Under the pieces are notes generated by a model, which was not told where the DNA came from, did no database searches, and worked only from the letters and a program-made list of their open reading frames with translations. A program made the translations under genes and the position numbers. A stretch of 64,000 bases of DNA from Tepiditoga spiralis (GTDB taxonomy: Bacteria; Thermotogota; Thermotogae; Petrotogales; Petrotogaceae), in the NCBI RefSeq assembly GCF_014701195.1, contig NZ_AP018712.1:1382501-1446500 (forward strand), given 5' to 3'. Each line of letters starts with the position of its first letter. Positions within the stretch are counted from its first letter, which is position 1. Of this stretch, positions 5,512 to 64,000 are shown piece by piece.

Positions 5512-6303
5512 TTGAAAAAGTATTTTTTTATTATGGTTTTATTAGTGAGTGTGATTTTTTTAGGCGAAGATTTTAGAAATATTTTTCAAAAATCTGGAAC
5601 AAAACTTGGTTTTTATCTTGCATCTAAAATAGGAGATAGTGTTGTTGGAATTCTTCCTTTTGAGGGTAATGATAAAGAAAAGTCTACGCTTGTTTCCGAT
5701 ATATATTCATATTATTTGATGGAAAACAATATAAAAATAGTAGACAGAAAAGAATTGGAAAAAGTAATAAAAGAAATAAAATTATCAATGCTTGGAATAA
5801 CAGATATAAAAAATTCAAATAAATTGGGGAATTTGATAAGTGCAGATTATTTATTAACAGGAAATATTAAAAAATTGGGAGATATATATTATATAAATAT
5901 AAAAGTAATAAAAGTTTCTACTGGAGAAAGTATTTATACAGATAGTATAAATTTTGAAGATAAAGAATTTATTACTATAAAAAAAGTAGAAGAGTATTTT
6001 GCTGAAAGAAAATATCCATCAACAGCATTGTTTAGGTCAGCATTGATACCTGGATGGGGGCAAATGTATAATGATCAACCAATAAAAGGAGGTATATTTG
6101 GAATAAGTATGATTGGATCGATATCATTGGATTTATATTTTTTTAATGAGTATCAAAAATATTTGAATTCTACAAATGAAGAAATGTATGATAAAGATTT
6201 AAAAAAGGCAAATGATTACAATAAATACTTTTTAATTAGTTTTGGAACAACAATAGCTATTTGGATAATAAATATGGCAGATGCTTATATTAATGCAAAG
6301 TGA
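5512..6303 (+). CDS. Exported protein with CsgG/FlgO-like domain and DUF5683-like C-terminus
   Basis: The 263-aa protein begins with a hydrophobic signal (residues 1-20). Residues 40-165 (VVGILPFEGNDKEK ... ADYLLTGNIKKLG ... STGESIY) resemble the CsgG/FlgO/TolB-N fold of envelope lipoproteins, where a stress or assembly factor gathers at the outer membrane. The C-terminal part has SALIPGWGQMYNDQP followed by two hydrophobic helices, the signature I associate with DUF5683. The start codon is TTG at 5512, supported by GGAGGG six bases upstream. The next gene begins about 20 bases after its stop, so it may help place the giant lipoprotein. Confidence 0.6.
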   Translation: MKKYFFIMVLLVSVIFLGEDFRNIFQKSGTKLGFYLASKIGDSVVGILPFEGNDKEKSTLVSDIYSYYLMENNIKIVDRKELEKVIKEIKLSMLGITDIKNSNKLGNLISADYLLTGNIKKLGDIYYINIKVIKVSTGESIYTDSINFEDKEFITIKKVEEYFAERKYPSTALFRSALIPGWGQMYNDQPIKGGIFGISMIGSISLDLYFFNEYQKYLNSTNEEMYDKDLKKANDYNKYFLISFGTTIAIWIINMADAYINAK

Positions 6304-6322
6304 GAAAGTGAGGATGAGAATT

Positions 6323-9300: not shown

Positions 9301-12300
9301 TATAAGTGAAATGAAAACAGCTTCAACATCACTAATTCATTTACCAAATGCAACTAATTTAACAGATTATTTACATGGAAAGATAGTTACAAAAGATACA
9401 GTTATTACAAAAGCTCAATCTCCTTATTATGTTAGTGATAGTATTTTAGTAAATGAAAATGTTAAATTAACTATAGAAGCAGGAGTTGTTTTGATTTTTA
9501 AAAATAACACTAACATAATAATAAATGGTTTTATAGAAGCAAGGGGAACAAATGATGAGAAAATAGTTTTTAAGCCAGAAAATATAGATGATGTATTCAA
9601 CCTAAAGGTAAATAGTTCTTCAAAAGATATACAAAATAAAACAATGAATAAAAGAAACTTTTTAAAATCAAAAAATATATTTACATCATCATTAAAAGAT
9701 ATGATAAATTCAGAAATGAAAAGAACTATAAAATACTTAAAAGATAAACAGTTTAAAACAGTTGTAGATAATAAAACTATTGAAATATCAAATAATTTAA
9801 AATCTAAAAATTTATATAATAAAATAAATAAGGAATATTCTGAAGAACAAACAAATACTTCGAACATATTAGAAAATATTGATATGGAAAAAGGAAATCT
9901 TGAAATTGAAAATGGAGTTATAAAAAATTTAACTGGAAATTCTTTAAAAATTTTAAATTATGTAGAAATTTATAATTCAAATTTAAAAATTCTTGATTGT
10001 GAAACAGGAATGGTAAAACTCATAAACTCTAATATTTTAAGTAGTTTTAATCTTTCTGGTTATATAACTGATAGTAATTTAGTTAATTCTAATAATCATA
10101 ATTATGCTTTAACAAATTCATATGTTAAAAATAGTAGTTTAACTGGAAATTTTAGAATTAATAATTCCATTGTAGAAGATTCAAGTATAGAATTTAGTAA
10201 AAATGATTATGATAATACATATATACAAAATTCTAAAATAAGTAATTCAAAGATATCTAAATTATCAGATGGAATGAATGAAAATATCAGAATGAATATA
10301 GCATCATCTATTTTAATTTCTAATACAATCAAAGATATAACTATTAAAATAACAGGTACTTCTATGATGAATAATGAAAATAATTTTTCCTATTTTTCCT
10401 ATATTATTTACAATAACATTTTTAATGAACATACAGGAATTGAAATTGGGACAAATAAAGTTTTATTAGCTTACAATAACTTTATAGGTCAAATAGATTT
10501 TGCAATAAAACTCATGGATTCAGCTAAAAATGGAAATATTGAATCTAAAAATAATTATTTTGGAACTGATAATATTGAGCAAATAAAAAATAAAATATAC
10601 GATTACGATGATGATCCAAACTTTTCATTATCAAGAGTAAACTTTGAACCATATGAAACAAAAGAAATAAATTCAATATCTGAAATTCAAGAAATAACGT
10701 CAAAAGAGTTAAGTGGAAATCTATATTTAAACTATAAATTAACAAAAAACAATAGTCCATATGTTGTTACAGATAACTTATCTATATTTGGAAAATTAAT
10801 AATTGAGCCAGGTGTTGAAATAAAGGTAAATAAAGATAAAAAAATAGATATTTATGGATCTATAGAAGCAGGAGATGTTGATAAAGAATCAATAAATTTT
10901 TATACCAATACAGGAGTTATGGCAAAGGATATGTGGTATGGAATAACTTTTTATAACACAAATGAAAAATCTATAAAGTTTGAAAATGTGATAATAGATA
11001 ATACTATAACTGGTATTACATTACAAAATGCATCTGTTAAATTAAATAAGTTAACGATAAAACAAACAACAACTGGAATACAAACATCTGGAAACTCTAA
11101 TTTAACTCTTATAAATTCAAATGTTCAAAATTCAACTTCTAATGACATTGAATTTTTGGGTAATACTTTAAAAATTAATGATTCTAAAGTTAACAAATTA
11201 AATCTTAATGGTGGTAATAATAATGGAAGTTATCAAATAGAAGATTCAAAGTTTACTTCTATTGTTTTTATGAATAGTATTTATAAAAATGTTTATTTTA
11301 AAAATATAAATACACAAAGTTTAAATATGAACTATATTTATTCAAATATAAAAATAGAAAATTCTATTATTGGCCGTTTATATAATGAGTCAATTAGTAA
11401 TGGAGTTTTGTATGTAGAAAATTCAAAGATAAATAGTTTTTCAAGTAATCATATGTGGTATAATTCAAAGTTGATAATAAAAAATAATGAAATAAATTTT
11501 TTTGATGCCCTTTGTGATATGAATAATAATTTTGAAGGAAAAATAATAATACAAAAAAATAAATTTAAAAATAATTTTTTTATTGGTATGAATACAACAG
11601 ATTCAAAAAATCAAGACGGTTATGATGTTGATATTTTTAACAATACTTTTGATTATACAAATTCTCAATATCAAAATGGTGAAGGTAATGTAATTATAAA
11701 TCGTTTGAAGTACGTTTCTATACATGATAATATTTTTAAAAACGGTGTTGAATTGAAAATAACTAATGATAAAACAACAAAAATATATGATAATACTTTC
11801 AAAGATAATAATTATGATACGTTAATTGTTGATGGAGAGCTTTCTATGCCTGAAATATATAATAATACCTTTTATGGAAACAATAATTATGCTGTTGTTG
11901 TAAGAAAAGGGTTAATTGCAGGATTTAAAAATAATTATATTGCATTAAACTTTGGTGGTGTAAAAATAGAAAACATGAGTAATAATATAAACTTATCTGA
12001 AAATATAATTATGATGAATAGATATTTGAACTTAGAAAATAACTCAAATTATAAAATCAATTTATCTGATAACTTTTGGGGACTTTATACAGAAGAATCA
12101 ATAAAAGAAACTATTATGGGAAGTTATGAAATGGAAAGTTTTAAAACGAAGTTGATAGAAGAAGCAGGTTCAAGTGAAAAACCAGATATAGGAGAACTTT
12201 TGAGTTATACAAACTTAAAGGATTATATTTTAAATAATGATACATTAAAAGAAGAGGATTCACCATACTTAGTAACTTCTGATATAGATTTAAATAATAT

Positions 12301-14659
12301 GATTTTTGAAGGAAATATTGAAATAAAAATAAGTGATGGAAGAAAAGTAATAATAAATAAGTCTAAACAAAAATCAGGAACTTTAACTTTTTCTTCTGTT
12401 TATGAAAGAAATGAAGCAAGTAATATAACAAAAGTAATTAATAATTCAAAGTTAAATGATTTTCAAATTAATGGAATAAGTTTAGAAAACAATAATGATA
12501 TAGGAACTTTATTATTAAACAATGGATTTGTTAATGGAAAAGGTATTATTGAGCAATTAAATACATCAGGAACTTTAAATACTGTTGATGTATATAAAGT
12601 AATGAATGCAGATATAAGTACAAACTTTATTTCAAATAACTCTAACTTTGATACAGTAAATTTAAAAAATGTGAATAATGCTGAATTTAATTTAGGTAAA
12701 ATATTAAAGTTAAATACAGAAAATGTAAAAACACTAAAATTAAATTCAGAGAGTATTGAAAATATTGTTACTACTACAGTTGATAACTTATATTTAAATA
12801 ACGTTGAATTAAATAAAGCAAAAATTTCAAATGCTAAGTATTTGGAGAGTAACTCTAAAATAGAAGAATCTAATTTTAAAGATATTGAAAGTATAAACTT
12901 ATTCAATGCAAATGTTTTTAAGTCAACATTTGATAATTCTCCAGTATTATTGAGTAATACAAAGCTATTTAATAATACAATTAAAAATGCAAATATTGGA
13001 CTTACAATAAAAGAAGCAAATGATGAAGATAGTGTATATATAATGAAAAATGTATTTGATAATAATACCGAAGATATAAAATCAAATGTATCGAATAAAA
13101 TAAATGCACAATATAATTACTTTGTATCTGGAACGCCAAATATATCAGGAAATATAGATGTATCAAATTCATTATCAGAAACGCCTAATGATGAAGAAGT
13201 AGCATTAAATCATGAAATAAGTGGAAAGATCATACTCAACTCTGTTTTAAAAGCTTCTGATAAAGACTATAAAGTAACAGATAATTTAATAATAATAGGA
13301 AGATTGAGAGTTGAACCAGGAGTGAATATAAAGATAAAAGAAGGTAAAAAAATAGAAGTTAGAGGTAGTTTAATAGTTGAAGGTACAAAAGAAGACAATG
13401 TTTTTATCAAACCAGATACTTCTATTTTAATTAAAGATAAATGGAGTGGCTTTGATATAAAAGCTGGTGGAACTTTGACTTTAAAGTATGCAGTTACAGG
13501 TTATGCAAGTACATTAATAAATAATTTTGGAACTGTAAATGTTGAAAATTCAAAAATTAAATTAAATACAATTGCATTTAATCAATATGAAAATTCAAGT
13601 AGTAGTATTTTAAATTCAAAAATTTCTTCAAATGATTCAGTTATAAAATTTAGTAATAATAGTGAAGAATTTGAATTTAATATTGATAATTGTAACTTTT
13701 ATTCAAACTCAAGTTTTATTGATATTGATAATGAGGGTTATTCTGATAAAGCAAAAAGTTATCTAAATATATCAAACTCAAAAATTTCATCAAACTCTTT
13801 TGAAATTAATAGATTAAATTGTAAAGTACAAAACACATTGATTAAAACATCAAATTTTAATTTGAACAGTTCAAACTTTGAAAGTGATTTTTCAACAATA
13901 ACTTATATAGATAATATGAGTATGAACGTATATGTAGGAAGTGATACAAGTGTTGTTATTAAAAATAGCTATTTAAATACTTTAAATACTTCTTATTCTA
14001 ATAATATTATAATAAATGCAGAAAATTCCACGTTTACAAATATTAATTTTTATAGAGAATATAATAATAAAATTTCTATTGAAAATTGTAAAGTGTCGAA
14101 TTTACAACTAGATAATTTTAGTGGAATTTTAAATGTAAATAATGGGAAGATTGGCCATTTGAGAATTTCTGGAACAATAAAAGGAAATATAAACTTTAAT
14201 AATATTTTATTTGAAAAAATTGATGAAAACTATAATAATTTAATAGAAATTAATTCTAATTATCCTATAATTTTTAATAATATTCATTTAAATGGAAACA
14301 ATAAAAATACTGATGGTATTTTTATTTCTAATGATGCTATGATTGGATTTAAAAACTCAATATTTGAAAATTGTAGTAAAGCAATAAATATAGAAAAAGG
14401 AGCATTATTATATTTTGATAAAAATAAAATTATAAATAATAGTTATGGAATTTATATTAAGGAGTTTCCATCAGAAGATGTGGAGTTGCAAATAACAAAT
14501 AATGAATTTAATAATACTCATTATAACATTTATAATGAAACAAAAAATAAAGTTATAGCTGATGATAATTATTGGAACACTTTAGATGAAACAACTATAA
14601 AAAATAAAATTTATAATGTTGTTGTTTCTAAATGGCTTTCAGAATCACCAATTAACTAA
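6323..14659 (+). CDS. Giant surface lipoprotein: carboxypeptidase-regulatory-like repeats plus four beta-helix modules
   Basis: Predicted exported lipoprotein of about 2,780 aa. A GTG at 6323 with GAGG nine bases upstream gives a signal peptide ending in the lipobox LTSC. About ten CarboxypepD_reg-like beta domains follow (each with a T-D-x-N/D-G-x-Y/F turn and a G-x-Y-x-L/I-x-I strand) up to about residue 920. Next comes an Ig-like segment (TIPPIINKVLINGG). The remainder is Asn-rich right-handed beta-helix. Four modules start near residues 1041, 1485, 1986 and 2323 (numbered from an in-frame ATG at 6281) with SPYYV/SPYVV/SPYLV/DYKVT plus PGV-like turns, and each ends near an N-Y-F/W-G-like motif. 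No enzyme motif was recognised. A role as a structural envelope (toga) or adhesion protein is inferred. It is intact, with no stop in over 8 kb. Confidence 0.75.
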   Translation: MKKYIELTILFLIIVLTLTSCILKPTPGTIQGHINLKFSDQLDGTLIKIKGLNTTVKTDKDGNFMIKNLEPKDYTLQISRQDYEEKEIKVNVYTGNIVSVNTSLSFKFGKVLGSVSVLNDEDEINLNFINLDKKAKDLKNKILKGSNTFEYNLMPGKYNLVINSNKYSSYEKEITVVKDKKIELAPIILQSIMGIIEGKIIPQNVNGEDDLNSEKSNFSIKLYNKDTLKVETVTDKNGYFHLNYHEGTYTIKIVKKNYITQTIEVNIYKNKTNSLSNIKMFVGGENKGWIKGKVYLEDRKNNENSGIGIIFKPLNSENIVQTTITDKDGNYNSLLDVGKYEVEISKENYTSVSTQVNVEEYKISSLQSVELKRKSTLVEGYVKLPGSLDNSGAIVQIGDFSETTNKDGYYKIISKTGVQDIKVTKENYIAYSDKLNVLDLDKNKFDLILEPLKSSIEGFAKYNIESINNQEGITVTIEGTSLDLNNKEINVFFTTKTDKNGYYKIINVPFGKYKISYSAQGFSTVVLNNLEIYPNQKKTIEKIIFLEEIPTTGSVYGKAYLKNSKDMSGINVLAKKHNGPGYITVTDINGTYVFPKISSGIYDLEFSKFSYKTYVIKDVKVNIGDKINIKDSPILEKASGKIIGTVKLEGWNNSKDIKIELLGDYEKKLGYRLYTYTDENGNFELEAPVSQNYTGLRVYKNEDFEDYTYSDNFQTTETTPYKPIFEKTSDTPLILKAIKNTVKGKVTIANFTNNLNIEVELKSKTSDATYLTYTNKEGIFEFQHIPLGTYIQKSSFPQCGYVLSPVDVIPGNLVQTNDVTLFPNAGEVTGKVNLKNVTDNSKVSITLIPFDTNVEKMSYNTITNENGNYTFGSILHGKYKLIAKKDGWNENKIDSLEVKSFKTTTVPTLELSDTIPPIINKVLINGGSSTTDNTKVIITTFAKDVGSGLYQISISNDKNQENWMKYEYQKIYDLDSTEGEKTIYVKVKDNSENISEMKTASTSLIHLPNATNLTDYLHGKIVTKDTVITKAQSPYYVSDSILVNENVKLTIEAGVVLIFKNNTNIIINGFIEARGTNDEKIVFKPENIDDVFNLKVNSSSKDIQNKTMNKRNFLKSKNIFTSSLKDMINSEMKRTIKYLKDKQFKTVVDNKTIEISNNLKSKNLYNKINKEYSEEQTNTSNILENIDMEKGNLEIENGVIKNLTGNSLKILNYVEIYNSNLKILDCETGMVKLINSNILSSFNLSGYITDSNLVNSNNHNYALTNSYVKNSSLTGNFRINNSIVEDSSIEFSKNDYDNTYIQNSKISNSKISKLSDGMNENIRMNIASSILISNTIKDITIKITGTSMMNNENNFSYFSYIIYNNIFNEHTGIEIGTNKVLLAYNNFIGQIDFAIKLMDSAKNGNIESKNNYFGTDNIEQIKNKIYDYDDDPNFSLSRVNFEPYETKEINSISEIQEITSKELSGNLYLNYKLTKNNSPYVVTDNLSIFGKLIIEPGVEIKVNKDKKIDIYGSIEAGDVDKESINFYTNTGVMAKDMWYGITFYNTNEKSIKFENVIIDNTITGITLQNASVKLNKLTIKQTTTGIQTSGNSNLTLINSNVQNSTSNDIEFLGNTLKINDSKVNKLNLNGGNNNGSYQIEDSKFTSIVFMNSIYKNVYFKNINTQSLNMNYIYSNIKIENSIIGRLYNESISNGVLYVENSKINSFSSNHMWYNSKLIIKNNEINFFDALCDMNNNFEGKIIIQKNKFKNNFFIGMNTTDSKNQDGYDVDIFNNTFDYTNSQYQNGEGNVIINRLKYVSIHDNIFKNGVELKITNDKTTKIYDNTFKDNNYDTLIVDGELSMPEIYNNTFYGNNNYAVVVRKGLIAGFKNNYIALNFGGVKIENMSNNINLSENIIMMNRYLNLENNSNYKINLSDNFWGLYTEESIKETIMGSYEMESFKTKLIEEAGSSEKPDIGELLSYTNLKDYILNNDTLKEEDSPYLVTSDIDLNNMIFEGNIEIKISDGRKVIINKSKQKSGTLTFSSVYERNEASNITKVINNSKLNDFQINGISLENNNDIGTLLLNNGFVNGKGIIEQLNTSGTLNTVDVYKVMNADISTNFISNNSNFDTVNLKNVNNAEFNLGKILKLNTENVKTLKLNSESIENIVTTTVDNLYLNNVELNKAKISNAKYLESNSKIEESNFKDIESINLFNANVFKSTFDNSPVLLSNTKLFNNTIKNANIGLTIKEANDEDSVYIMKNVFDNNTEDIKSNVSNKINAQYNYFVSGTPNISGNIDVSNSLSETPNDEEVALNHEISGKIILNSVLKASDKDYKVTDNLIIIGRLRVEPGVNIKIKEGKKIEVRGSLIVEGTKEDNVFIKPDTSILIKDKWSGFDIKAGGTLTLKYAVTGYASTLINNFGTVNVENSKIKLNTIAFNQYENSSSSILNSKISSNDSVIKFSNNSEEFEFNIDNCNFYSNSSFIDIDNEGYSDKAKSYLNISNSKISSNSFEINRLNCKVQNTLIKTSNFNLNSSNFESDFSTITYIDNMSMNVYVGSDTSVVIKNSYLNTLNTSYSNNIIINAENSTFTNINFYREYNNKISIENCKVSNLQLDNFSGILNVNNGKIGHLRISGTIKGNINFNNILFEKIDENYNNLIEINSNYPIIFNNIHLNGNNKNTDGIFISNDAMIGFKNSIFENCSKAINIEKGALLYFDKNKIINNSYGIYIKEFPSEDVELQITNNEFNNTHYNIYNETKNKVIADDNYWNTLDETTIKNKIYNVVVSKWLSESPIN

Positions 14660-19033: not shown

Positions 19034-19681
19034 TTATTTAAAAATAGTTGGATAAAGTACTGAAAAATTGTAAGTGAAATGTATTAAAATAGAAACAATG
19101 ATATCACCAGATATTTCATAAAAAAAAGATAAAAAAATTCCAAAAAGAAAAATGTTTGTTAATTGTCCATAACTATCTATTGTATGTGCAAATGTAAAAA
19201 TTAAAGAAGATAAAATCATTGCAAATACAATTGATTTTTTTCTTAAACTTCCATACACCATCTTTCTCATTAATATTTCTTCAATTGTTGCAAAGATTAT
19301 CAAAGATATTATCATAATAAATGTAGTTGTTCCAATATAAGGTGCTTTTTTTAAAACTAAAAATAATGATGATACTCTTAATAGAAGTTCATTTTTTGTA
19401 TAAAAATTTTTAATAACTATTATTTCTTGAAAATATTTCCAAAACAAATAAAAGCCATATCCTAAAACAGGTGCTATTAAATAAAAATATATTTTTTTTA
19501 TTTTAAGTTTTTTATTTAATTCAATAGTTTTAAATAGATTAGCTTTTTTTACTATATATACAATAAAAATGAACGTAAAGATTTTTATAAAATAGGTTAA
19601 TATAGAATTTATATTAAAAGAATATAAGAGTTTTATTATTAAAATATATAATATAGGTAATATTATTAAAAACTTCTTCAT
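19034..19681 (-). CDS. CPBP-family intramembrane metalloprotease (Abi/CAAX-like), copy 1
   Basis: Polytopic membrane protein of 215 aa. It carries the CPBP signature: EEILMR (EExxxR), then FTFAHTID with a ligand His, then HFTYNF. Family members cleave substrates inside the membrane; several sit in bacteriocin loci as immunity or processing proteins. I start it at 19681, where ATG overlaps the upstream stop as ATGA. Its neighbour copy 2 is a paralogue. No terminator separates it from the unknown gene at 20.7 kb, so the set probably forms one operon. Confidence 0.8.
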   Translation of the reverse strand: MKKFLIILPILYILIIKLLYSFNINSILTYFIKIFTFIFIVYIVKKANLFKTIELNKKLKIKKIYFYLIAPVLGYGFYLFWKYFQEIIVIKNFYTKNELLLRVSSLFLVLKKAPYIGTTTFIMIISLIIFATIEEILMRKMVYGSLRKKSIVFAMILSSLIFTFAHTIDSYGQLTNIFLFGIFLSFFYEISGDIIVSILIHFTYNFSVLYPTIFK

Positions 19682-20388
19682 TTTATTATATTCTCCATTA
19701 TAGATGGTAATAAACAAAATAAATTATATGAAGCATGAAAAACCATAGATAAAATCAAGTCGCCACTAAAATAATAAGCAAGACTATAAATAAAACCTGC
19801 TAAAAACAAGTTAAAAAAAACTGCAATTGTATCAAAATTATGCCATGAAACAAATAATAACGTAGATAAAATAAAAGCTAAAAATATATTTTTTTTCTTT
19901 AAGAATCCAAATATAATTCCTCTATATATTAATTCCTCATAAATTGGTGCTATTATAACTAAAAAAAGTACTCTTTGTAATGTAGTTTCTGAAAAAACAT
20001 TAGACTTTACTTGAATGTGTACAAAAGTCAATCCAAAGTTGCTAAAATGTTTCATTAACTCATTTTGTTCAAAGAAAAATGAGTTTTGTAAAAAGGTACA
20101 TTGTAAATAATTATTTAACTTTAATATAAAAAATCCAATAAAAGCCCCAAATACATATGTTAATATTCTATATTTTTTATTTAGTTTTGGTTTTAAAAAT
20201 ATATTTTTTTCTTTTATATTTTTTCTAAACAAGTATATACAAACAAAAAACATATAGTAAAAAAAATAAAAAACATAATTATTAATAAAAATAATTTCTA
20301 AATTTCTACTTAATCCCATAATTACAAGATATAAGAGTGTTATCAAAAATAAAGAATAATCTTTTTTAAAAAAAGCTTTAATATTCAA
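19678..20388 (-). CDS. CPBP-family intramembrane metalloprotease (Abi/CAAX-like), copy 2
   Basis: 236-aa polytopic membrane protein. Motifs are IYEELIYRGIIFG (EExxxR), LFVSWHNFDT (His) and MVFHASYNLF (His), the usual CPBP set. The start is TTG at 20388 behind AAAGGAGA. It is coupled to copy 1 by a 4-base overlap. The gene lies 63 bases downstream of a broken coding fragment, with a small AT hairpin between (AACTTATGCA-type repeats near 20422-20445). Confidence 0.8.
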   Translation of the reverse strand: MNIKAFFKKDYSLFLITLLYLVIMGLSRNLEIIFINNYVFYFFYYMFFVCIYLFRKNIKEKNIFLKPKLNKKYRILTYVFGAFIGFFILKLNNYLQCTFLQNSFFFEQNELMKHFSNFGLTFVHIQVKSNVFSETTLQRVLFLVIIAPIYEELIYRGIIFGFLKKKNIFLAFILSTLLFVSWHNFDTIAVFFNLFLAGFIYSLAYYFSGDLILSMVFHASYNLFCLLPSIMENIIK

Positions 20389-20451
20389 AATATTTTCTCC
20401 TTTCTAATGTTAATAAACAAGAACTTATGCAAATGCATAAGTTATTAAGTA

Positions 20452-20712
20452 TTAAATTTGTATATCTTCTACTCTTGTATGTCTTCTTCTATATAATTCT
20501 TCTATTCTATAACCAACTGTTTCACCTAAGTTTTGAGAATCTACTGTTTCTACTATCTTTCTATAAGTTATTACATACCATTCATAAATATTTCTTCTGT
20601 AATGAGTAATAACTGAAATTGAAATATATGGTCCAGGATTACCTACGGCTATATCATAAGTATATGTTTTGTAAAGTTTTTCTGGTGTTGTTTTATCCCA
20701 AATAGCAACTAC
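20452..20712 (-). pseudogene. 3' remnant of an unidentified gene
   Basis: The minus strand reads 86 clean codons, starting VVAIWDKTTPEKLYKTY and ending RRRHTRVEDIQI before TAA at 20452. The composition is protein-like (many Y, R, E, V) but no ATG, GTG or TTG start exists in frame near the 5' end. It is in the same frame as the preceding gene: the junction reads TTT-TAA-AAA-TAG-GTA, so two stops separate them. I read it as the tail of a lost gene or of an originally longer upstream protein. The family is not recognised. Confidence 0.55.
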
Positions 20713-20718
20713 CTATTT

Positions 20719-21429
20719 TTAAAAGCGAACTATTTTTAATAGTGTTTCAAAATTATATTGTAAATCATCCAAATGTGTTTTATTTGTATTACCTTTTAAA
20801 TCATGAATTGTATCTGTATAAATTGAAAAAACCTTAGTTTTAGGGTTAATCAATTCATTAACAAATTTAGGATATTTTAAATAAAAAAATCTGGTGTATC
20901 TATTTATTGTATCAATATTTTTAAGTGTATATGTTCCCAATTTAGTTCTATAAGCTTCAACATACTTATTTTTTTCCTTTTTCATCACTCTTCCAAAAAT
21001 TATATATCTAATTTCAAAAGAAGCTTGACTTTTTAATAAATGTATATCTTCTTTATTAATTATTTGAATTTCTTCTTTTTTTATATTTTTATCAATAATA
21101 TTTTCAGAGATTCCATTTTTAATAAATTTTTCTAAAGCATAATTTAATAAATTATTTTCAAACTTTGTTTTTGTAATAATTTTTTCTGGATAATTTTTAA
21201 TTTTTTCTCTTGTTTTGCAACTCTTTTCTGTTATTACTACAATTTTTTTATCATTAAAATTTTCCAAATCTATATCCATTTTTTTATTTTCTATAATATT
21301 TTTTAAACTTCCTTTTAAATCAAATACATAATGAGTATAAATATAATTTTTACATTGAAACCCTATTAAAATTAAAATTATAACAAATACAAAAAGTGAA
21401 GTTAAAATAAATACTATCTTACTCTTCAA
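20719..21429 (-). CDS. Unrecognised membrane-anchored protein
   Basis: 236-aa protein with one N-terminal membrane segment (about residues 7-28) and a lysine-rich extracytoplasmic part. I recognise no family. SFEIRYIIFGRVMKK is faintly like the FlgO/CsgG-type end seen in the 5.5 kb protein, but this is weak. The start is TTG at 21429 with AGGAAGGTG six bases away; a TTG at 21447 lies inside that ribosome site. It heads the set with the two CPBP proteases and lies downstream of the dispersed-repeat element. Confidence 0.6.
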   Translation of the reverse strand: MKSKIVFILTSLFVFVIILILIGFQCKNYIYTHYVFDLKGSLKNIIENKKMDIDLENFNDKKIVVITEKSCKTREKIKNYPEKIITKTKFENNLLNYALEKFIKNGISENIIDKNIKKEEIQIINKEDIHLLKSQASFEIRYIIFGRVMKKEKNKYVEAYRTKLGTYTLKNIDTINRYTRFFYLKYPKFVNELINPKTKVFSIYTDTIHDLKGNTNKTHLDDLQYNFETLLKIVRF

Positions 21430-21533
21430 TTTTTTCACCTTCCTCAAATTATTTTTACCAATTTAAAATATTTATGAAAACTTTTGCTGATTGTTTATTA
21501 ATTAATTAATTAATATACTAAAGATGCTAAAGG

Positions 21534-21713
21534 TTAGGATAATTTTGCACTCATTTCCCAATTAATTAATGAAAATCTTGCATGCGAATAGTTCATGATT
21601 TGATCAAAAGAATAATCTTTAAAAATTTTTAGTTTGTTCATTACATTAAAATATGTGTTAATTCCACATGAGTTTATATTTTTTTATTTTAATTCAAACA
21701 ATTCAATAATCAT
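21534..21713 (-). pseudogene. Degraded coding remnant in the 21.4-22.1 kb gap
   Basis: The minus strand reads ATG plus eight codons (MIIELFELK), a TAA, then in the same frame about 49 sense codons, including FKDYSFDQIMNYSHARFS, to TAA at 21534. The internal ATG for the second part has no ribosome site. A protein-like stretch after one in-frame stop suggests a decayed gene or a degenerate leader peptide. The family is not recognised. Confidence 0.35.
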
Positions 21714-22010
21714 TTCCTTTTTCTTACATGAACATTATATCAAAAAAAAAAAAAGAATCAACTATTTTAGTTATACTAATTAATATCTTTACTTAAATAT
21801 AATATAATTTTGATTAATTTATATCGTTTCTTTTATTTTTTTATGTTATTAATTTTATATTAATTAATAATATTTGTGAATTTAAATTTTATATTTTTTC
21901 TAATGTTATTATTAATCATTTTCATAACAAAAGTTTGTGAAACTTTATTAAATATTAATTTTTTATAAATGTTTTAATTTAATATTTTATTATTAATGTA
22001 ATAGTAACTT
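21681..22010 (+). repeat. Dispersed AT-rich repeat, copy A
   Basis: About 330 bases closely matching 63383-63702 in the same orientation. Shared blocks include TTTTATTTTAATTC, CATTATATCAAAAAA, ATTTATATCGTTT, TTATTAATTTTATATTAA and TTAATCATTTT. It contains no open gene. On the minus strand it ends about 250 bases before the start of the 20.7 kb gene and carries a promoter-like pair with a 13-base poly-T spacer. The remaining gap up to 22110 is AT-rich with nothing else recognised. Confidence 0.75.
21731..21757 (-). promoter_or_regulatory. Promoter-like boxes with poly-T spacer (copy A)
   Basis: On the minus strand TTGATT is followed by C, thirteen T, GA and then TATAAT, a 16-base spacer, which is in the functional range. 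In copy B the same boxes are separated by only seven bases because the T-run is shorter. Confidence 0.45.
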
Positions 22011-22125
22011 TTAAAAATGAGTTATTTTTTAATTTATTGTATCTAATCTTTAATGATAAATAAAGTTTTTTTATAAAACTTTTATATGATAAAATATATT
22101 AGACTTATTAAAAGGAGTGAAAAAA

Positions 22126-28134: not shown

Positions 28135-28181
28135 AAAAACCTCTGTAAATTACACTATCAGTGTTTTTACAGAGGTTTTTT
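28135..28181. terminator. Bidirectional terminator between the cyclophilin and the AAA-ATPase gene
   Basis: Arms AAAAACCTCTGTAAA and TTTACAGAGGTTTTT enclose a 16-base loop that can itself pair (ACAC/GTGT). The genes converge on it. Confidence 0.85.
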
Positions 28182-29965
28182 CATTTATATAAATTCACTA
28201 TTTCTGTTATAGATAGACCTGTAAGTTCGGATATCATATTTTTATCTAATCCTTTTTTAAGCATGTTCTTTGCTACTTTTTCTATCTCTGTTAATTCAAC
28301 CTCTTTATCTAAATTACTAACAATTTCAACCTCTTTTTTATCAAAAGCTATTGAAATTTTTATTATATCATTTATTCCATAACTTTTTATCTCTTCTTCA
28401 TACTTCTTTTCATTTATTTGTTTTAGTCCATTTTGTGCACTGTTTAATAGTATTTTTTCATTTTTATAAAACTTTTTAAACTCAATAATTATTCCTTTAT
28501 CTGTTTTATCTTTTGGTATTAAAATAACATCTGCTCTTCCAAGTCCTGTTTCTCTATTACTCTTTATTATGTACTTTTCTTTTAAACCAACACTCATTCC
28601 AAGTATCAGTCCATGATAAAATCTTTCTGGTTCTTCTCCGCTAACGTCAAAATAACTCAATGTATTCATAGTCATTTTTTGAAAGTCTTCTTTAAATTCT
28701 TCTATATGTCCATTTATTAAGTTTATTAGTATGTTATCTAATTGTATATTTCCTTCTTCAAGCATTAATAATACTGTATCTTCATAAAACATTCTTACTT
28801 CTTTATTTGGAATAGCAAGTGTGTATCTTCTATAACCTTCTTTTGTTTCTTTAATCCATTTTAAGTAACCACTAAATAAAAATAATGTCCATATTGATTC
28901 ATTTGAATTTAAGTATAAATCACCGTATACCATAGTTTCATTTATTTTACTTTCAATATTTTCTCCATTCAAAAGTTTTTCTATACTATCTTTTATATTA
29001 ACAGTTCCTTCTTTTATTAGCTTTCTTATTAAATAATTCCCACTAGTATTCATCCAGTATGGACCTATTTTCCCTTTATTCTTTGCAAGAGTTACTATAG
29101 AAAAAGGATTGTAAATTTCAACACCGCCAAAGTTATAACCATTGTACCAATCTATAACTTCATTTTCTTCATATTCAAGTTCATAATACTTAAGTGTTTC
29201 TTCAACTTCTTCTTTAGTTAAACCATACTTATCATTGAATAGTTCATTCAATACAGTAGAAACTTCTAAGTTATTCACACCAGTAAAGATACTTTCTTTA
29301 GAAACTCTTGTTATACCAGTAAGAACTGCTTTTTCAAGGTATACATTATCTTTTAATGCCATTCCAAATAAGTTACCAATTAAAGATATTATTTCATCAT
29401 AGTATCCGTGTAAGTAAGCTTGTTGAATGGGAGTATCGTATTCATCTATTAATATTATTACCTTTTTACCATAGTATCTTTCCATATATTCAGATAAACT
29501 TCTTATAGAATTTTCATAATCAGCATCTAAAGCTTCTCTACCCATTATTTTATCATATATAATTTTTTCTTCATTATCTAAAACTTCTAAAACATACTTA
29601 TGCTTTAAATACAACCTTGAAAGCTCCATGGTTAATAAAGCATGCATCTTTTTTAAGTTATTAGACTTTAAATCTTTAAAGGTGATGTATATAACAGGAT
29701 GTTTATTTAAATGTTTTTCTATTATATTTTTTTCTTTGTATATCTTTAAATCTTTAAAGAGGTATTCGTTGTTTTGAGTAATATCAAAAAAGTACTTCAT
29801 CATGGATTGACTGAGAGTTTTCCCAAACCTTCTTGGTCTTGTTATTAATAGAACGTCTCCACTTTCAATAACTTCTTTGATTAACATACTTTTATCTACA
29901 AAATACATATTGTCATCTATTAATGATTTAAAGTCACTTCTTCCTATTGGAAGCCTTTTTTTCAT
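28181..29965 (-). CDS. AAA-ATPase/PD-(D/E)XK nuclease superfamily protein (DUF1703 type)
   Basis: 594-aa protein of a family that occurs in many copies in some anaerobes. N-terminal AAA-ATPase-like domain: IGRSDFKSLIDDNMYFVDKS, P-loop variant TRPRRFGKTLSQSMM (about residues 42-57), IILIDEYDTPIQQAY (Walker B), TGITRVSKESIF. The C-terminal part carries the nuclease-type core GRADVILIPK ... GIIIEFKKF (about 500-525). Function is unproven; toxin, defence or mobile-element roles are discussed. Start 29965 fits GAGGTG. A relative is cut by the right window edge. Confidence 0.85.
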   Translation of the reverse strand: MKKRLPIGRSDFKSLIDDNMYFVDKSMLIKEVIESGDVLLITRPRRFGKTLSQSMMKYFFDITQNNEYLFKDLKIYKEKNIIEKHLNKHPVIYITFKDLKSNNLKKMHALLTMELSRLYLKHKYVLEVLDNEEKIIYDKIMGREALDADYENSIRSLSEYMERYYGKKVIILIDEYDTPIQQAYLHGYYDEIISLIGNLFGMALKDNVYLEKAVLTGITRVSKESIFTGVNNLEVSTVLNELFNDKYGLTKEEVEETLKYYELEYEENEVIDWYNGYNFGGVEIYNPFSIVTLAKNKGKIGPYWMNTSGNYLIRKLIKEGTVNIKDSIEKLLNGENIESKINETMVYGDLYLNSNESIWTLFLFSGYLKWIKETKEGYRRYTLAIPNKEVRMFYEDTVLLMLEEGNIQLDNILINLINGHIEEFKEDFQKMTMNTLSYFDVSGEEPERFYHGLILGMSVGLKEKYIIKSNRETGLGRADVILIPKDKTDKGIIIEFKKFYKNEKILLNSAQNGLKQINEKKYEEEIKSYGINDIIKISIAFDKKEVEIVSNLDKEVELTEIEKVAKNMLKKGLDKNMISELTGLSITEIVNLYK

Positions 29966-30032
29966 TTTCATCACCTCGTTTTATATCCTTACATGTTATT
30001 ATATCAAATCTTCTTTAAAATAAAAAAATGTT

Positions 30033-58054: not shown

Positions 58055-59863
58055 TTATATTCTATCACATTTTTCATATAACTCTGATTGTGAATACCAT
58101 AATTTTTTGTAATATACCGAATTTTTTAATAATTCACTGTGCTCTCCCACATCAACTATTTTTTTATTATCCATAATTATTATTTTATTACAATACTTTA
58201 TAGAAGCTAATCTATGTGTTATTATTATCGCTATTTTATTTTTGCTTATTTCTTCAAATTTTTCATATAATTCATTTTCAGAAATGGGATCAAGTGCTGC
58301 TGTTGGTTCATCAAGAACTATGATATCATAATTTTTAAAGATTCCTCTTGCTATAGCAACTTTTTGCCACTGCCCTCCAGAAAGTTCTGTACCTTCAAAT
58401 TCCTTTGATAATACTGTATTTAATCCTTTAATAAACTTTTTATCTAAAGAATTTATACCAACAGAATTCAAAATATCTTCTATTTTATCTTCTTCATTTT
58501 TATTTTTAATATTACTAATAGCAATATTTTCTTTTAAAGTTATTTTATATCTATTAAATTTTTGAAATACAGCAGTTCCTTTATTCCTTATTGATTTTAA
58601 TGATAACAATGATGAAGGAACTTCATTATAACATATTTCACCACTTGTTGGTTTGTACAATCCTAATATTAATTTTGAAAGAGTTGTTTTTCCTGCCCCA
58701 TTTTTTCCAATAACTGCTATTCTATCTCCTTTTTTTATTTTTAAATTAATATTTTTAATTGCTTCTTTTCCCGTTGGATATGTAAAAGATACATTCTTTA
58801 ATTCAATACTTTTTATTTCTTCAACAATATTTTTTAATCTTTTATTTTTTTTAGAATTCTCAATTAAATTTAAAAAATTTATATATTTTTTTACTTTTCC
58901 ATATACTGCAATACTATCTCCCAATCTATATTCAAATATTTCTTCCATTAGTCCAAAAAGATTTGAAAGAGAGATATATACTGCTGCAAAAGTACCTATT
59001 GTAATTTCATTTTTCATAATTAAATATATAGTTAATCCAAGAACTCCAATATAACCAATAATAGTCATTAATTTTGATATTGAATCTATTTTATTTACTT
59101 TTTTTTGATAAATTAATCTCAAATTATGGTACTCATTGGATGTTTTATTAAAAAGTTTGAATATATAATTAATTGCATTTAGTGTTCTTGTTTCTTTTAA
59201 GTAATTTTTATTTTTTATGTATGAAGAATATATATTTTTTTTCCTTCTTAATGGAGCATGATTTTCTTCAAGTTTTTCATAATAACTTTTTTTTATTATT
59301 TGTGAAAATAATACTGGAAAAAATATAAACAACATACTTATTCCTAAAATAGGATTTAAAGAAACCAAATAAATTTCTATAAATAAATAGTATGGTAAGT
59401 ATAAAAACAACAAATCCATAATTACATTTAAAACCCTACGTACAGATTTTGCTCCTACAATGGCAGAATTTACAAAATCTCTATTTTCAGAGTTGTTAAA
59501 AAAATTTGGTGATATTTTTGCAATTTTTAAGTTTAAATTTTTTAAAAGTGTTTTTAAGGTCATATCGTGATAATATTCCCCAAAGTATTCAGATATTCCA
59601 CTTGATACTTCTGATATAATAATAAAAACCGTTAAATATATGAGTTCTACGATAATATTTTTCAAATTTTTATTGTTTATTCCAATAACACTATCAAAAA
59701 CTTTTTGCATCTGATATGTTGTAAGCCCTAAGAATATTGCATCTAATACTGAAAAAAAATACTGTGAAAAAAATTTTATTGGTGATATTTTAATAATATC
59801 TACAAAAACATGAAAGATATTTATTTTTTTTTTATTCACCATACCATCTTCTTTGTTTTTCAT
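58055..59863 (-). CDS. ABC exporter subunit 2 (membrane plus ATPase) of the RiPP cluster
   Basis: 602-aa half-transporter: about six helices (residues 20-330), then a nucleotide-binding domain with Walker A IGKNGAGKTTLSK, signature LSGGQWQKVAIARG, Walker B IIVLDEPTAALDP and H-loop ITHRL. No C39 peptidase domain precedes the membrane part, so it cannot itself cut a leader. It overlaps the other exporter gene by 32 bases; ATGs at 59863 or 59842 are possible starts. Probably forms a heterodimer with subunit 1. Confidence 0.88.
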   Translation of the reverse strand: MKNKEDGMVNKKKINIFHVFVDIIKISPIKFFSQYFFSVLDAIFLGLTTYQMQKVFDSVIGINNKNLKNIIVELIYLTVFIIISEVSSGISEYFGEYYHDMTLKTLLKNLNLKIAKISPNFFNNSENRDFVNSAIVGAKSVRRVLNVIMDLLFLYLPYYLFIEIYLVSLNPILGISMLFIFFPVLFSQIIKKSYYEKLEENHAPLRRKKNIYSSYIKNKNYLKETRTLNAINYIFKLFNKTSNEYHNLRLIYQKKVNKIDSISKLMTIIGYIGVLGLTIYLIMKNEITIGTFAAVYISLSNLFGLMEEIFEYRLGDSIAVYGKVKKYINFLNLIENSKKNKRLKNIVEEIKSIELKNVSFTYPTGKEAIKNINLKIKKGDRIAVIGKNGAGKTTLSKLILGLYKPTSGEICYNEVPSSLLSLKSIRNKGTAVFQKFNRYKITLKENIAISNIKNKNEEDKIEDILNSVGINSLDKKFIKGLNTVLSKEFEGTELSGGQWQKVAIARGIFKNYDIIVLDEPTAALDPISENELYEKFEEISKNKIAIIITHRLASIKYCNKIIIMDNKKIVDVGEHSELLKNSVYYKKLWYSQSELYEKCDRI

Positions 59864-61610
59864 ACATTTTATAATAAACTCCTCTTTTATCTAATAGTTC
59901 ATTATGAGTTCCTCTTTCAATAACTTCACCATTTGAAAAAACAAGCACTATATCTGTATATTTTACTCCTCCCAATCTGTGTGTAATTAAAATTTTCATT
60001 GATTTAAAAGGTACTGAAAAAAATTTTTCAAATATACTTCTTTCAGAAATAGGATCAAGTGCTGCTGTTGGTTCATCAAATATTTGTATTGGAGCGTTTC
60101 TATACAAAGCCCTTGCTATAGCAACTTTTTGCCATTGTCCTTCTGAAAGATTGTTCCCTTTACTTTCTATATAACCTAATACTGTTTTTTCTTTTTCAGG
60201 TAATTTTTCTATAACTTCTTTAACTTCACTTATTTTTATTACTTCGTCAAACAATTTATCATCACATTTTTTTATATCTTTCATTTTTATATTTTCTTCA
60301 AATGAAATGGAATACCTTACATAATCCTGATAAACAACAGAAAAATATTCATACCATTCTTCTAATGATAGATTTTTTTGATTTTTTCCATTTATTAGTA
60401 TCTCACCTTCATAATCTTCATACAATCCAAGCATTAACTTTATAATTGTTGTTTTTCCTGCTCCATTTTCTCCGACAAAAGCATATGTTTTTCCTTTTTC
60501 TAATACAAAATTTAAATTTTTTAAAATCCATTTATTTGAATTTGGATACTTAAAAGATACATTTTTAAACTCTATTTTTTCTACATCTTTTTTGTTTATT
60601 TTTTTGATACTATTTTTTCTTCTCACTTCAGGAAATTTCATAAAATTCTCAAAATCTTTCATATAATTTATTCTTTTTATTATATCTTTTACTATATTAG
60701 AAAATGTCCATGACATTGGATGAATTAAATTAAATACTGCACCAGTAATACTTATAAACATACCTGAAGTTATTTTTCCAAAAGTTAGAATATAAAGTAA
60801 ACTTGCTGAGATACCAAATGCTAACAATGACATTAAAAAACTTAACCCTTTTATTTTTGCAATATTTTTTAAAGTAATTTTTATATCAATTTTTCTTCCT
60901 TTTTCATATAAATTTTCAAATTCATTTGCTATTTCATTTCCATAATTAAATAATACTCTTTCATCAACCATTTCTTCGGAATTCAACATTGTATCATATA
61001 CTTTTGCTCTTCTAAAAAACTTCATTGATTTTGTGTATGAATCATATTCTTTTTCTCCACTATAATATGCTACTACTGCCATAAATATTAGCAATATAAA
61101 CACTATTGAACTAATTAATATACTACTCTCTAATATTATTATTGATATAGAAAATATTTCAACTATTATTTTAAAAAAAGAACTTATTTCTTCTAAAGCA
61201 GAAGTTATAGCATTTTCAGAATTTTCATAAATTCTTTCAATTAATTCATAATTTTCATGATTTTCAAGAACTTCATACTTTAATTTTGAACTTTTTTTTA
61301 TAATGTCTCCTTCAAATTTAAAATCTACCCTTTTAGACAATCTTACATAAAGTTCTTTTGATATTAAATTTATTAAATAATTTATAAAAAATAACACAAA
61401 AAATAATATTGAAATATAAATAAAGTTAGAGTTTATAGTTTTAGTTTTTATAATAACTTGTGCAGCATCAATAAAATAAGCTACCACAAGTATTTTTATG
61501 GCTGGCGTCATATAATTAATTACTTCAATAATACTATATACACTAAATATCAGAGGCGCATTTTTTAAAGAATACAATATATATTTTATAATTAATTTTA
61601 TTTTATTCAT
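59832..61610 (-). CDS. ABC exporter subunit 1 (membrane plus ATPase) of the RiPP cluster
   Basis: 592-aa half-transporter. Walker A VGENGAGKTTIIK, signature degenerated to LSEGQWQKVAIARAL, Walker B IQIFDEPTAALDP, H-loop ITHRLGG. The SEGQ signature suggests one weaker ATP site, usual in heterodimeric exporters. No peptidase domain. AAGGAG precedes the ATG. It follows the precursor gene after a 177-base gap that holds two inverted repeats. Confidence 0.88.
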   Translation of the reverse strand: MNKIKLIIKYILYSLKNAPLIFSVYSIIEVINYMTPAIKILVVAYFIDAAQVIIKTKTINSNFIYISILFFVLFFINYLINLISKELYVRLSKRVDFKFEGDIIKKSSKLKYEVLENHENYELIERIYENSENAITSALEEISSFFKIIVEIFSISIIILESSILISSIVFILLIFMAVVAYYSGEKEYDSYTKSMKFFRRAKVYDTMLNSEEMVDERVLFNYGNEIANEFENLYEKGRKIDIKITLKNIAKIKGLSFLMSLLAFGISASLLYILTFGKITSGMFISITGAVFNLIHPMSWTFSNIVKDIIKRINYMKDFENFMKFPEVRRKNSIKKINKKDVEKIEFKNVSFKYPNSNKWILKNLNFVLEKGKTYAFVGENGAGKTTIIKLMLGLYEDYEGEILINGKNQKNLSLEEWYEYFSVVYQDYVRYSISFEENIKMKDIKKCDDKLFDEVIKISEVKEVIEKLPEKEKTVLGYIESKGNNLSEGQWQKVAIARALYRNAPIQIFDEPTAALDPISERSIFEKFFSVPFKSMKILITHRLGGVKYTDIVLVFSNGEVIERGTHNELLDKRGVYYKMYEKQRRWYGE

Positions 61611-61656
61611 TATTTTTTCTCCTTCTAAAAATATGCTAAATGAATACTTAAAAATA

Positions 61657-61725
61657 CATAGAAATAAAAAAATTTTTATATAATATTCATTAAGAATCTG
61701 ATAAATAGACTTTTTTATTTCTATG
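61657..61725. promoter_or_regulatory. 15-bp inverted repeat between precursor and exporter genes
   Basis: CATAGAAATAAAAAA (61657-61671) and its exact complement (61711-61725) are 39 bases apart. On the minus strand the second arm is T-rich and could end the precursor transcript. Confidence 0.5.
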
Positions 61726-61753
61726 CTTAGGAATTAATTTCATTAAATTACTG

Positions 61754-61780
61754 TAACCTACAGGTAACACCTGTAGGTTA
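61754..61780. promoter_or_regulatory. Perfect 12-bp hairpin just after the precursor gene
   Basis: TAACCTACAGGT, loop AAC, ACCTGTAGGTTA. No T-tract follows on the minus strand, so it is more likely an mRNA-stabilising or processing hairpin than a full terminator. That would raise precursor output over the exporters. Confidence 0.7.
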
Positions 61781-61787
61781 TAATGTA

Positions 61788-61895
61788 CTAATTACAAAAA
61801 ACACTACGACTCTTTCCGTTACATGTTCCTTTTCCACAGCCATCAATTTCTATAACTACTTTTGATACTTTTACAATAGGTTCTTTATAATCCAT
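61788..61895 (-). CDS. Putative RiPP precursor peptide, 35 aa, three cysteines
   Basis: The minus strand from ATG 61895 encodes a short charged leader (MDYKEPIVKVSKVVIEI, residues 1-17) and a Gly/Cys-rich core starting DGCGKGTCNGKS and ending SVFCN. The cysteines are at 20, 25 and 34. The ribosome site AGGAGA lies six bases upstream, inside the last codons of the radical SAM gene, whose stop is only 4 bases before. Position, size, leader/core split and Cys content fit a radical-SAM-modified peptide (sacti- or ranthipeptide-like). The class is not certain. It is too short for normal gene calling. Confidence 0.75.
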   Translation of the reverse strand: MDYKEPIVKVSKVVIEIDGCGKGTCNGKSRSVFCN

Positions 61896-61899
61896 TTTT

Positions 61900-62943
61900 C
61901 TATCTCCTTTCAGAATCAATAATATATTTTAATGCTTTAGCATTTTGTTTATTTATTGATGAACAACCAAATAAATCATTATCTTCTGAATAAGCCAAAC
62001 CAGGACATCTATTACAAATATTTTCAAGATCACAATTCTTACATTCTTCTAATTCTTTATTTGTTAAATTATATATAAATTTAAGATCTGAAGAATTATA
62101 CCAAATATCCTTTAAAGATTGCTTTTTCAAATCACCAACTTTATATAAAAATGAATTACAAGGATAAACATTTTTATTTGAATCTATATATAAGCTATAT
62201 CTTGTATTTGGACAAACATCATCTAAATTTTTTTTATCTTTTAAGTTTTTTCTGTTAACATTTATATTCAAGTTAAAATTTTTATTAAATTCTATTAAAT
62301 CATTAAAATCTAAAGAATTATCTTTAGGAGAAGAATCTCCATTTATTTTTGACATTATTGTTGGATTTGGGGAATATAAAAAATCATTTATATTACAAAA
62401 TTCTTGTAAATATTTATATGAATATTTATTTTGTTGCATTATAGGAGTTTTTATTTCTAAACTTATTCCTTTATTTTTCATTTTCATAATATTTGATAAT
62501 ATTTTTTTTAATGATCCTTTTACTCCTGTAATTTTGTCATTAATTTCTTCATTTAATGAAAATATTGTTGTGGAAAATTCAGTAATATATAATTTTGAAA
62601 GCTGTTCAATTTGAGAATCATTAATAAGTGTTGCATTACTTAATAATGTTACACGAAAACCCATTTCTCTCGCTTTTTTTATAATTTCCATAATATCAGG
62701 ATGTAAAAAGATTTCTCCACCTGTTAATATTGTTTCTAATGTACCTAATTTTTTTAATTCTTCAAATAAATCAAGAATAAATGAATATTCTAGACCTTTA
62801 TTATCATGTTTTGGAATATAACAATGTAAACATTTTAAATTACACAATGTCAAAAGTTCAATAGTTGCAATTAATGGAATTCTCCTTTTATAAGCGTTTT
62901 TTACAATCGTCTGAAAAGAAAAAGTATTATCAATTATCATCAT
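61900..62943 (-). CDS. Radical SAM/SPASM peptide maturase
   Basis: 347 aa. It starts with the radical-SAM cluster motif CNLKCLHC (Cys34, 38, 41), then LTGGEIFLHPDI (SAM-binding GGE) and VTLLSNATL. The C-terminal SPASM region has a Cys set (CPNTRYSLYID, YPCNSF, ECKNCDLENICNRCPG, FGCSS) able to hold auxiliary Fe-S clusters. Such enzymes form thioether or C-C links in ribosomal peptides. The ATG at 62943 overlaps the PqqD-like gene stop; the ATG at 62940 is better spaced from GAGGTA. Expected substrate: the adjoining 35-aa peptide. Confidence 0.93.
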   Translation of the reverse strand: MMIIDNTFSFQTIVKNAYKRRIPLIATIELLTLCNLKCLHCYIPKHDNKGLEYSFILDLFEELKKLGTLETILTGGEIFLHPDIMEIIKKAREMGFRVTLLSNATLINDSQIEQLSKLYITEFSTTIFSLNEEINDKITGVKGSLKKILSNIMKMKNKGISLEIKTPIMQQNKYSYKYLQEFCNINDFLYSPNPTIMSKINGDSSPKDNSLDFNDLIEFNKNFNLNINVNRKNLKDKKNLDDVCPNTRYSLYIDSNKNVYPCNSFLYKVGDLKKQSLKDIWYNSSDLKFIYNLTNKELEECKNCDLENICNRCPGLAYSEDNDLFGCSSINKQNAKALKYIIDSERR

Positions 62944-63224
62944 ATTACCTCAATAACTTCTTGAATAACAAGATCATTAATAAATTTTTTTAAATCTTTG
63001 CTAATAGTATCAGATGAAGTAGAATAAAATTTATTTTTTAATGTTTCTAATAATTTAGGAACGCTTTTTAAAATTACTAAATATTTCCAAAAATAAACCG
63101 CAACGCCTTCTAATAAAATATTAAATTTTGTCCTTTCGTCAATTATATAAACAAAATCATCATAATTTTGCCATGAAATCCATTTAGAAATTTTTATTTC
63201 TTTTTTTAATAAATCCTTATCCAT
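62940..63224 (-). CDS. PqqD-like peptide recognition protein (RRE)
   Basis: 94-aa small protein, first gene of the cluster. WISWQNYDDFVYIIDERTKF, then NILLEGVAVYFWKYL and a C-terminal helix ending FINDLVIQEVIEVI fit the winged-helix PqqD/RRE build that binds leader peptides and presents them to the radical SAM enzyme. Start 63224 is chosen because GAGGAGGAA precedes it. The assignment rests on pattern and context, as the sequence is divergent. Confidence 0.7.
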   Translation of the reverse strand: MDKDLLKKEIKISKWISWQNYDDFVYIIDERTKFNILLEGVAVYFWKYLVILKSVPKLLETLKNKFYSTSSDTISKDLKKFINDLVIQEVIEVI

Positions 63225-63382: not shown

Positions 63383-63702
63383 TTTTTATTTTAATTCGAT
63401 AAATTAATTAATCGTTTTTCCTTTGCTTACATAAACATTATATCAAAAAAATCAACTATTTTTAGTGTACTAATTAATATTTTTACCTAAATATAATGTT
63501 TTTTTGATTAATTTATATCGTTTATTTTATTTTTTTGTGTTATTAATTTTATATTAACTATTAGTATTTGTGAATTTGAATTTTATATTTTTTATAATGT
63601 TATTATTAATCATTTTTATTATAAAAGTTTGTGAAATTCTGTTAAATATTTATTTTTTATAAATATTCTGATTTAATTTTTTATTATTGATGAAATATTA
63701 AT
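63383..63702 (+). repeat. Dispersed AT-rich repeat, copy B
   Basis: About 320 bases matching 21681-22010 in the same orientation, with scattered substitutions and a shorter poly-A/T run (7 against 13). It lies upstream of the minus-strand RiPP cluster, as copy A lies upstream of the minus-strand CPBP set. Nothing else was recognised in 63255-63780. Confidence 0.75.
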
Positions 63703-63779
63703 ATCAAAAATTTCGGTGTTTTATTTTTTCACTATTTCCCATCATTATTTTCACGCTTTTTATGAGTTTTTATAAAAAT

Positions 63780-63810
63780 ATAATCCCAGCACCCGCTGGG
63801 ATTATATTTT
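63780..63810 (-). terminator. Terminator of the AAA-ATPase gene at the right edge
   Basis: An 11-base perfect stem ATAATCCCAGC / GCTGGGATTAT, loop ACCCG. The gene's TAA lies inside one arm, and T residues follow on the minus strand. Confidence 0.8.
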
Positions 63811-64000
63811 TTCTATTTTGTATTCGTCTATGTTTCTTTTTTCTGAGTTTATGTTTATTCCTATTATATAAATTTCTTTTCCTTTGTATTTTTCATAGTA
63901 CTTCATTTCTTTTATTTGATTTAAGGCTTTTTCTGCACTCTTGTCTATCTTTATTTCCATTATGTATATGACGTCTTCCTCTATTACTATATCGCTTCTT
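63802..64000 (-). CDS. AAA-ATPase/PD-(D/E)XK nuclease superfamily protein, C-terminal 65 residues (cut by the right edge)
   Basis: I translated the minus strand into an open frame ending at TAA 63802. It reads RSDIVIEEDVIYIMEIKIDKS, then ALNQIKEMKYYEKYKGKEIYIIGI and SEKRNIDEYKIEKI. This is the nuclease-type tail (D, E-x-K) of the same broad family as the 28.2 kb gene, though of another subgroup. The N-terminal ATPase domain is beyond the window. Confidence 0.85.
   Translation of the reverse strand, partial: RSDIVIEEDVIYIMEIKIDKSAEKALNQIKEMKYYEKYKGKEIYIIGININSEKRNIDEYKIEKI

Follow-up and report, generated by a model that had tools for sequence, protein, structure and literature searches.

Twelve copies of one upstream element are dispersed over the genome of Tepiditoga spiralis, and they probably constitute a family of phase-variable promoters, each of which would switch its own cargo genes independently of the others by slipped-strand mispairing. 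When aligned in gene direction, all 12 copies end in TAGTTGA-T(n)-TATAAT, in which the poly-T run forms the spacer between the -35 and -10 hexamers. Two of the copies, denoted E1 and E8, lie near 63 kb and 22 kb in the window, i.e., the whole 64,000-nt stretch of DNA that was analyzed. T. spiralis strain sy52T (Petrotogaceae, Thermotogota), a deep-sea bacterium, has a circular chromosome of 2,502,404 bp with a G+C content of 25.8% (PMC7734402); that of the window is 25.7%. Among PDB sequences, the ribonucleotide reductase encoded in the window is by far closest to 1xje (680 bits, against 175 for the next best), the Thermotoga maritima enzyme, whereas MnmG gave no taxonomic information in the same collection.

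The sequence-only reading of this DNA had proposed that the two window copies are homologous over more than 300 bases, have the same orientation and each lie upstream of a minus-strand gene set, all of which was borne out. Positions 63383–63702 (E1) and 21681–22017 (E8) align over 328–338 columns with 84.3–84.8% identity (BLASTN, E ≈ 1e-104). The local alignment score of the pair was 422, whereas 300 dinucleotide shuffles averaged 51 and did not exceed 81. The pattern TTGAT(10)N(0–16)TATAAT occurred eight times in the T. spiralis genome and not once in 20 other genomes of the family, and the backwards pattern also gave no occurrences. The shuffles and the backwards-pattern control thus rule out a chance similarity of AT-rich DNA. 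A known RNA was likewise rejected as the identity of the element, as an Rfam search of the window returned no match.

Across the genome we found the 12 full copies (E1–E12) and a few decayed ones. Every full copy is oriented toward the next gene, which starts about 90–300 bp past the -10 hexamer, in agreement with the earlier suggestion that a control region has been duplicated in front of genes. The same reading had taken many copies scattered without relation to gene starts as the mark of a mobile element; the genome-wide count instead showed all 12 copies facing gene starts, not the unrelated placement expected of a mobile element or MITE, so the element is not simply mobile. In the copy alignment the upstream boundary fades, and three types of leader follow the -10 hexamer. 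An AAA-ATPase gene is located directly upstream, in the same direction, at nine of the 12 copies; at E3, E8 and E12 it is absent. The genome contains more than 50 such AAA-ATPase_like (PF09820) genes, an extreme expansion that includes window positions 28181–29974. Many of them are located where no element was found, and comparison with PDB sequences revealed no relative of the AAA-ATPase.

All features of the E1 locus except an unstranded hairpin lie on the minus strand. The conserved upstream block of ≈255 bp, delimited by the copy alignment, occupies 63456–63710 and is followed by the -35 hexamer TTGATT (63450–63455), whose last two T residues belong to the T run, the T7 run itself (63445–63451) and the -10 hexamer TATAAT (63437–63442), which is preceded by TGA in an extended -10 arrangement. 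With a spacer of 7 nt, this promoter is predicted to be off. Further upstream is the 3' end of an AAA-ATPase/PD-(D/E)XK gene (63802–64000), which runs past the window and has its PF09820 match at genome positions 1447244–1447825; a terminator-like hairpin (63774–63811) lies at the end of this gene. The gene set downstream of E1 (58055–63224) begins with a PqqD-like protein (62940–63224, ATG at 63224 with a GAGGAGG ribosome binding site), which matched PF05402 with an E value of 3e-4, below the cut-off, and TIGR04248 weakly. Next comes a radical SAM/SPASM protein of the RiPP maturase type (61900–62943; PF04055, PF13186). Directly 3' of it, a small Cys-containing ORF with its own ribosome binding site (61788–61895) encodes a 35-aa candidate RiPP precursor, MDYKEPIVKVSKVVIEIDGCGKGTCNGKSRSVFCN, which has a weak match to NF050044 (19.5 bits, against a cut-off of 70). 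Two ABC exporters (59832–61610 and 58055–59863), neither of which contained a peptidase domain in the domain search, complete the set. With maturase, PqqD-like protein, small precursor and exporter all together, the E1 cargo fits a radical SAM RiPP cluster; none of the named RiPP classes with which it was compared reached its cut-off.

At E8, also on the minus strand, the upstream block (21762–22017, from the copy alignment) is followed by TTGATT (21756–21761), a T run of the form TTC-T13 (21742–21757) and TATAAT (21734–21739). The spacer is 16 nt long, so the promoter is predicted to be on, and its tract would be stabilized by the C. The gene set (19034–21447) starts with an ORF for a 242-aa protein with one apparent membrane anchor (20719–21447), which had no match in Pfam or NCBIfam, followed by two CPBP (Rce1-like) proteins, at 19678–20388 (PF02517, 68.8 bits) and 19034–19717 (PF02517, 61.8 bits). 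Elsewhere in the window, positions 6281–14659 hold a 2792-aa ORF, probably for a large surface or secreted protein.

TTGA and TATAAT are invariant in all 12 copies, and the hexamers are retained even in copies that have diverged, S13 and L019 among them. A homopolymer separates the two hexamers in every copy, three of the runs being interrupted once by C. Most copies also have an extended -10 (TGn). About 255 bp upstream of the -35 hexamer are conserved among the copies; the most invariant stretch is 85–160 bp away from that hexamer, and the block contains two occurrences of the motif TTCACAAA. A plain consensus promoter scan gave no more sites than were found in shuffles, and was uninformative because the DNA is so AT-rich. 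We infer that the element is a promoter from its conservation in 12 copies, the survival of the hexamers in diverged copies, its placement before genes and the parallel in a sister genus described below.

The optimum spacing for a sigma-70 promoter is 16 or 17 nt. Between TTGATT and TATAAT, the spacers are 7 (E1), 11 (E2), 16 (E3), 16 (E4), 18 (E5), 18 (E6), 13 (E7), 16 (E8), 17 (E9), 18 (E10), 19 (E11) and 23 nt (E12) in an assembly built from 454 and MiSeq reads, in which tract lengths may be slightly off. Seven of the 12 thus fall at 16–18 nt, and the remainder at 7, 11, 13, 19 and 23 nt. The C-interrupted tracts are those of E3, E8 and E9, with spacers of 16, 16 and 17 nt; such a tract should be more stable than an uninterrupted one. 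The copies E7, E10 and E11 have at most one mismatch in the 600 bp upstream and none in the 110 bp downstream, yet carry T13, T18 and T19, respectively, while other A/T runs of 6–7 in their flanks show no indels at all. A search of both strands of the whole genome for T runs of at least 12 gave 15 sites, eight of which are the spacers of these promoters, and one of which is elsewhere in copy E5. Among the remaining six, two follow terminator-like hairpins and one is close to a further TATAAT-like box, which leaves three in none of these groups; a T20 run outside these promoters is found at genome positions 2120050–2120069 (L090).

The cargo of the copies is diverse. E12 precedes a circular bacteriocin precursor that exceeds the cut-off for TIGR03651 (57.4 bits against 30.7) and also matches PF09221, accompanied by a SpoIIM-type protein and an ABC-type ATPase. 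This cluster of the circularin/uberolysin family, here in a member of the Thermotogota, is located at 988.2–991.6 kb in the genome (L026), and E2, at 979 kb, precedes a deleted second version of it. E1, E5 and E6 are followed by radical SAM maturases in three RiPP-type sets, and E5, like E1, has a 35-aa Cys-containing ORF. The E10 cargo, of which those of E7 and E11 are close copies, comprises a C39-like peptidase and an Lnt-type N-acyltransferase; E7 and E10 additionally encode a secreted protein that bears a GG-leader-like motif, which reads MSDSQMSAVVGG in E10. In these two proteins (L031 and L033), the motif follows a signal peptide and the genes lie near those for the C39 peptidase and apolipoprotein N-acyltransferase; the one of the two that was searched had no family match. 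CPBP proteins are found at E4 and E8, and small lipoproteins or secreted proteins at E3, E4 and E9. The genome contains eight CPBP genes, of which three are at elements (two at E8 and one at E4) and five are elsewhere.

The family search covered 21 genomes from eight genera, with T. spiralis as the sole genome of its genus. When the -35 pattern was relaxed, runs of T12 or more beside TATAAT appeared in a sister genus, g5. They belong to a distinct multi-copy family of promoters, with the approximate form TGATATATTAAT...TTGACTT-T(n)-GATATAAT, which is represented in all seven g5 genomes; the loci L100–L121 have poly-T spacers with the conserved TGATATATTAAT site upstream. At one pair of orthologues, the tract is T17 in genome G008 and T13 in G011, with 700 of 700 flanking bases identical; at another orthologous locus with identical or near-identical flanks, it is T15, T14 and T14 in G008, G011 and G005. 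Tract length therefore differs between otherwise identical loci both in T. spiralis and in g5, the comparisons being between paralogues and between species, not sister cells. Inspected by eye, the cargo in g5 contains a C39-like peptidase with a membrane protein next in order, similar to the arrangement at E7, E10 and E11, as well as small hydrophobic bacteriocin-like proteins beside membrane proteins; one of the latter small proteins had no match in NCBIfam. A shared origin of the upstream regions in T. spiralis and g5 was rejected, as an HMM of the g5 region failed to find the T. spiralis block (best E value 0.69). No relative of the g5 family was found in the other genera; the one match there covered 32 bases at the E11 T run. 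In public genome and viral collections, the T. spiralis -35 context with a nearby TATAAT occurred 21 times, in ordinary-looking promoters with mixed-sequence spacers, which were 15–17 nt long in 17 of the 21. One family genome (G012) contained ten identical 82-bp matches, with 74% identity, to part of the T. spiralis element, perhaps an insertion sequence end.

In the mechanism that we propose, replication slippage within the T run of growing cells would alter the distance between the -35 and -10 hexamers. A spacing near 17 nt would give a strong promoter, and other spacings a weak or inactive one, so that each set, whether circular bacteriocin, RiPP, C39/Lnt operon, CPBP set or lipoproteins, would flip on and off randomly and independently, cell by cell, presumably to some benefit of the cell. 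The extended -10 in most copies may lessen the dependence on the -35 hexamer, in which case the effect would be graded. A switch of this kind has no need of the long conserved block, which counts against the mechanism, although a common regulator may act through the block on top of the switching. A conventional regulon, in which such a regulator bound to the 255-bp block turns every set on or off at once while the T run drifts in length without effect, would explain why the conservation far exceeds the needs of a promoter and peaks well upstream of the -35, and why TTCACAAA occurs in duplicate. Nevertheless, we regard a regulon of this kind as unlikely, since a sigma-70 promoter could hardly be indifferent to hexamer spacings from 7 to 23 nt, the T run is restricted to the spacer, and g5 has the same poly-T spacer with an unrelated upstream sequence.

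The association with AAA-ATPase genes raises the question of whether the element is a passive tail, spread with these multi-copy genes or by recombination between them, with any promoter role incidental. The nine copies placed directly after such a gene, and the abundance of the genes themselves, are consistent with this, but the copies that lack an AAA gene, the many AAA genes that lack an element, and the orientation of every copy toward a gene start, with the hexamers retained, led us to set aside both hitch-hiking and a mobile element as quite improbable. The sequence-only reading had instead seen a control region that co-regulates the RiPP cluster and the CPBP set, with a CPBP protein trimming the RiPP leader or conferring immunity. 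Its duplicated control region stands, as does its observation that the RiPP cluster lacks a recognizable protease, no peptidase domain having been found there, and a copy is indeed present at both sets. A private link between the two is not supported: ten further copies precede other sets, a third CPBP gene is found at E4 beside a different partner, and the genome has five others elsewhere. Nor is there specific support for leader trimming, the three CPBP genes at elements being under two copies other than E1. Moreover, the spacer lengths in the assembly predict an inactive RiPP promoter and an active CPBP promoter, in which case the sequenced clone would not express both sets together, and the unequal spacers, one of them C-interrupted, fit independent switching better than common control. 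Taken together, this makes the pairing highly improbable.

If the slip-switch reading is correct, the production of bacteriocins and RiPPs in these marine anaerobes would be a per-cell lottery rather than a conditional response. The clone that was sequenced might then have some of its clusters switched off, and populations would differ in how competition evolves among their members. TAGTTGA-T(n)-TATAAT would also provide a simple handle with which to search the T. spiralis genome for unrecognized peptide clusters. More tentatively, T. spiralis and its sister genus could carry a combinatorial arsenal, in which about twelve operons for bacteriocins, RiPPs and secreted proteins have one slip switch apiece, a single clone gives many on/off combinations of antagonistic products, and cargo moves between switches via homologous recombination of the near-identical promoter blocks and the upstream AAA-ATPase genes.

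Homopolymer promoter switching is known mainly from host-associated bacteria, and the present family would extend it to free-living Thermotogota. In the open-access literature, we found no report of phase-variable promoters in Thermotogota or on Marinitoga bacteriocins, and no description of a dispersed slip-switch promoter family over many peptide clusters, with unrelated upstream sequences, in two genera of one family. The mechanism is known elsewhere, but that literature yielded no report of its use in Thermotogota as a set of bacteriocin-type switches spread over a genome. In the porA and opc promoters of Neisseria, a homopolymer lies between the -35 and -10 hexamers and the spacing sets promoter strength. 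The T. spiralis promoters share this homopolymer spacer, but porA and opc are single outer-membrane protein genes, not copies of one cassette. The vlp genes of Mycoplasma hyorhinis have homopolymer-bearing promoters, one per gene, that are switched independently (PMC10502178), and thus resemble the T. spiralis set as a multigene family with its own homopolymer in each promoter region. However, the vlp products are a single family of surface lipoproteins, and the organism is a host-associated mollicute, whereas the T. spiralis promoters precede unrelated operons, mainly bacteriocin- or RiPP-like, dispersed in the chromosome of a free-living member of the Thermotogota; their T run occupies precisely the interval from one hexamer to the other, and a long conserved block precedes it. 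In the nap island of Neisseria gonorrhoeae, bacteriocin-like peptides with C39 cleavage are predicted to be phase variable via homopolymers, but those tracts are in the napR and napC reading frames (PMC11798529), while the T. spiralis tracts are in the putative promoter. The E12 cluster, finally, resembles the circularin A/uberolysin systems in its above-cut-off precursor and the adjoining SpoIIM-type protein and ABC ATPase, and differs from them in sitting under a poly-T promoter, with a deleted second copy at E2.
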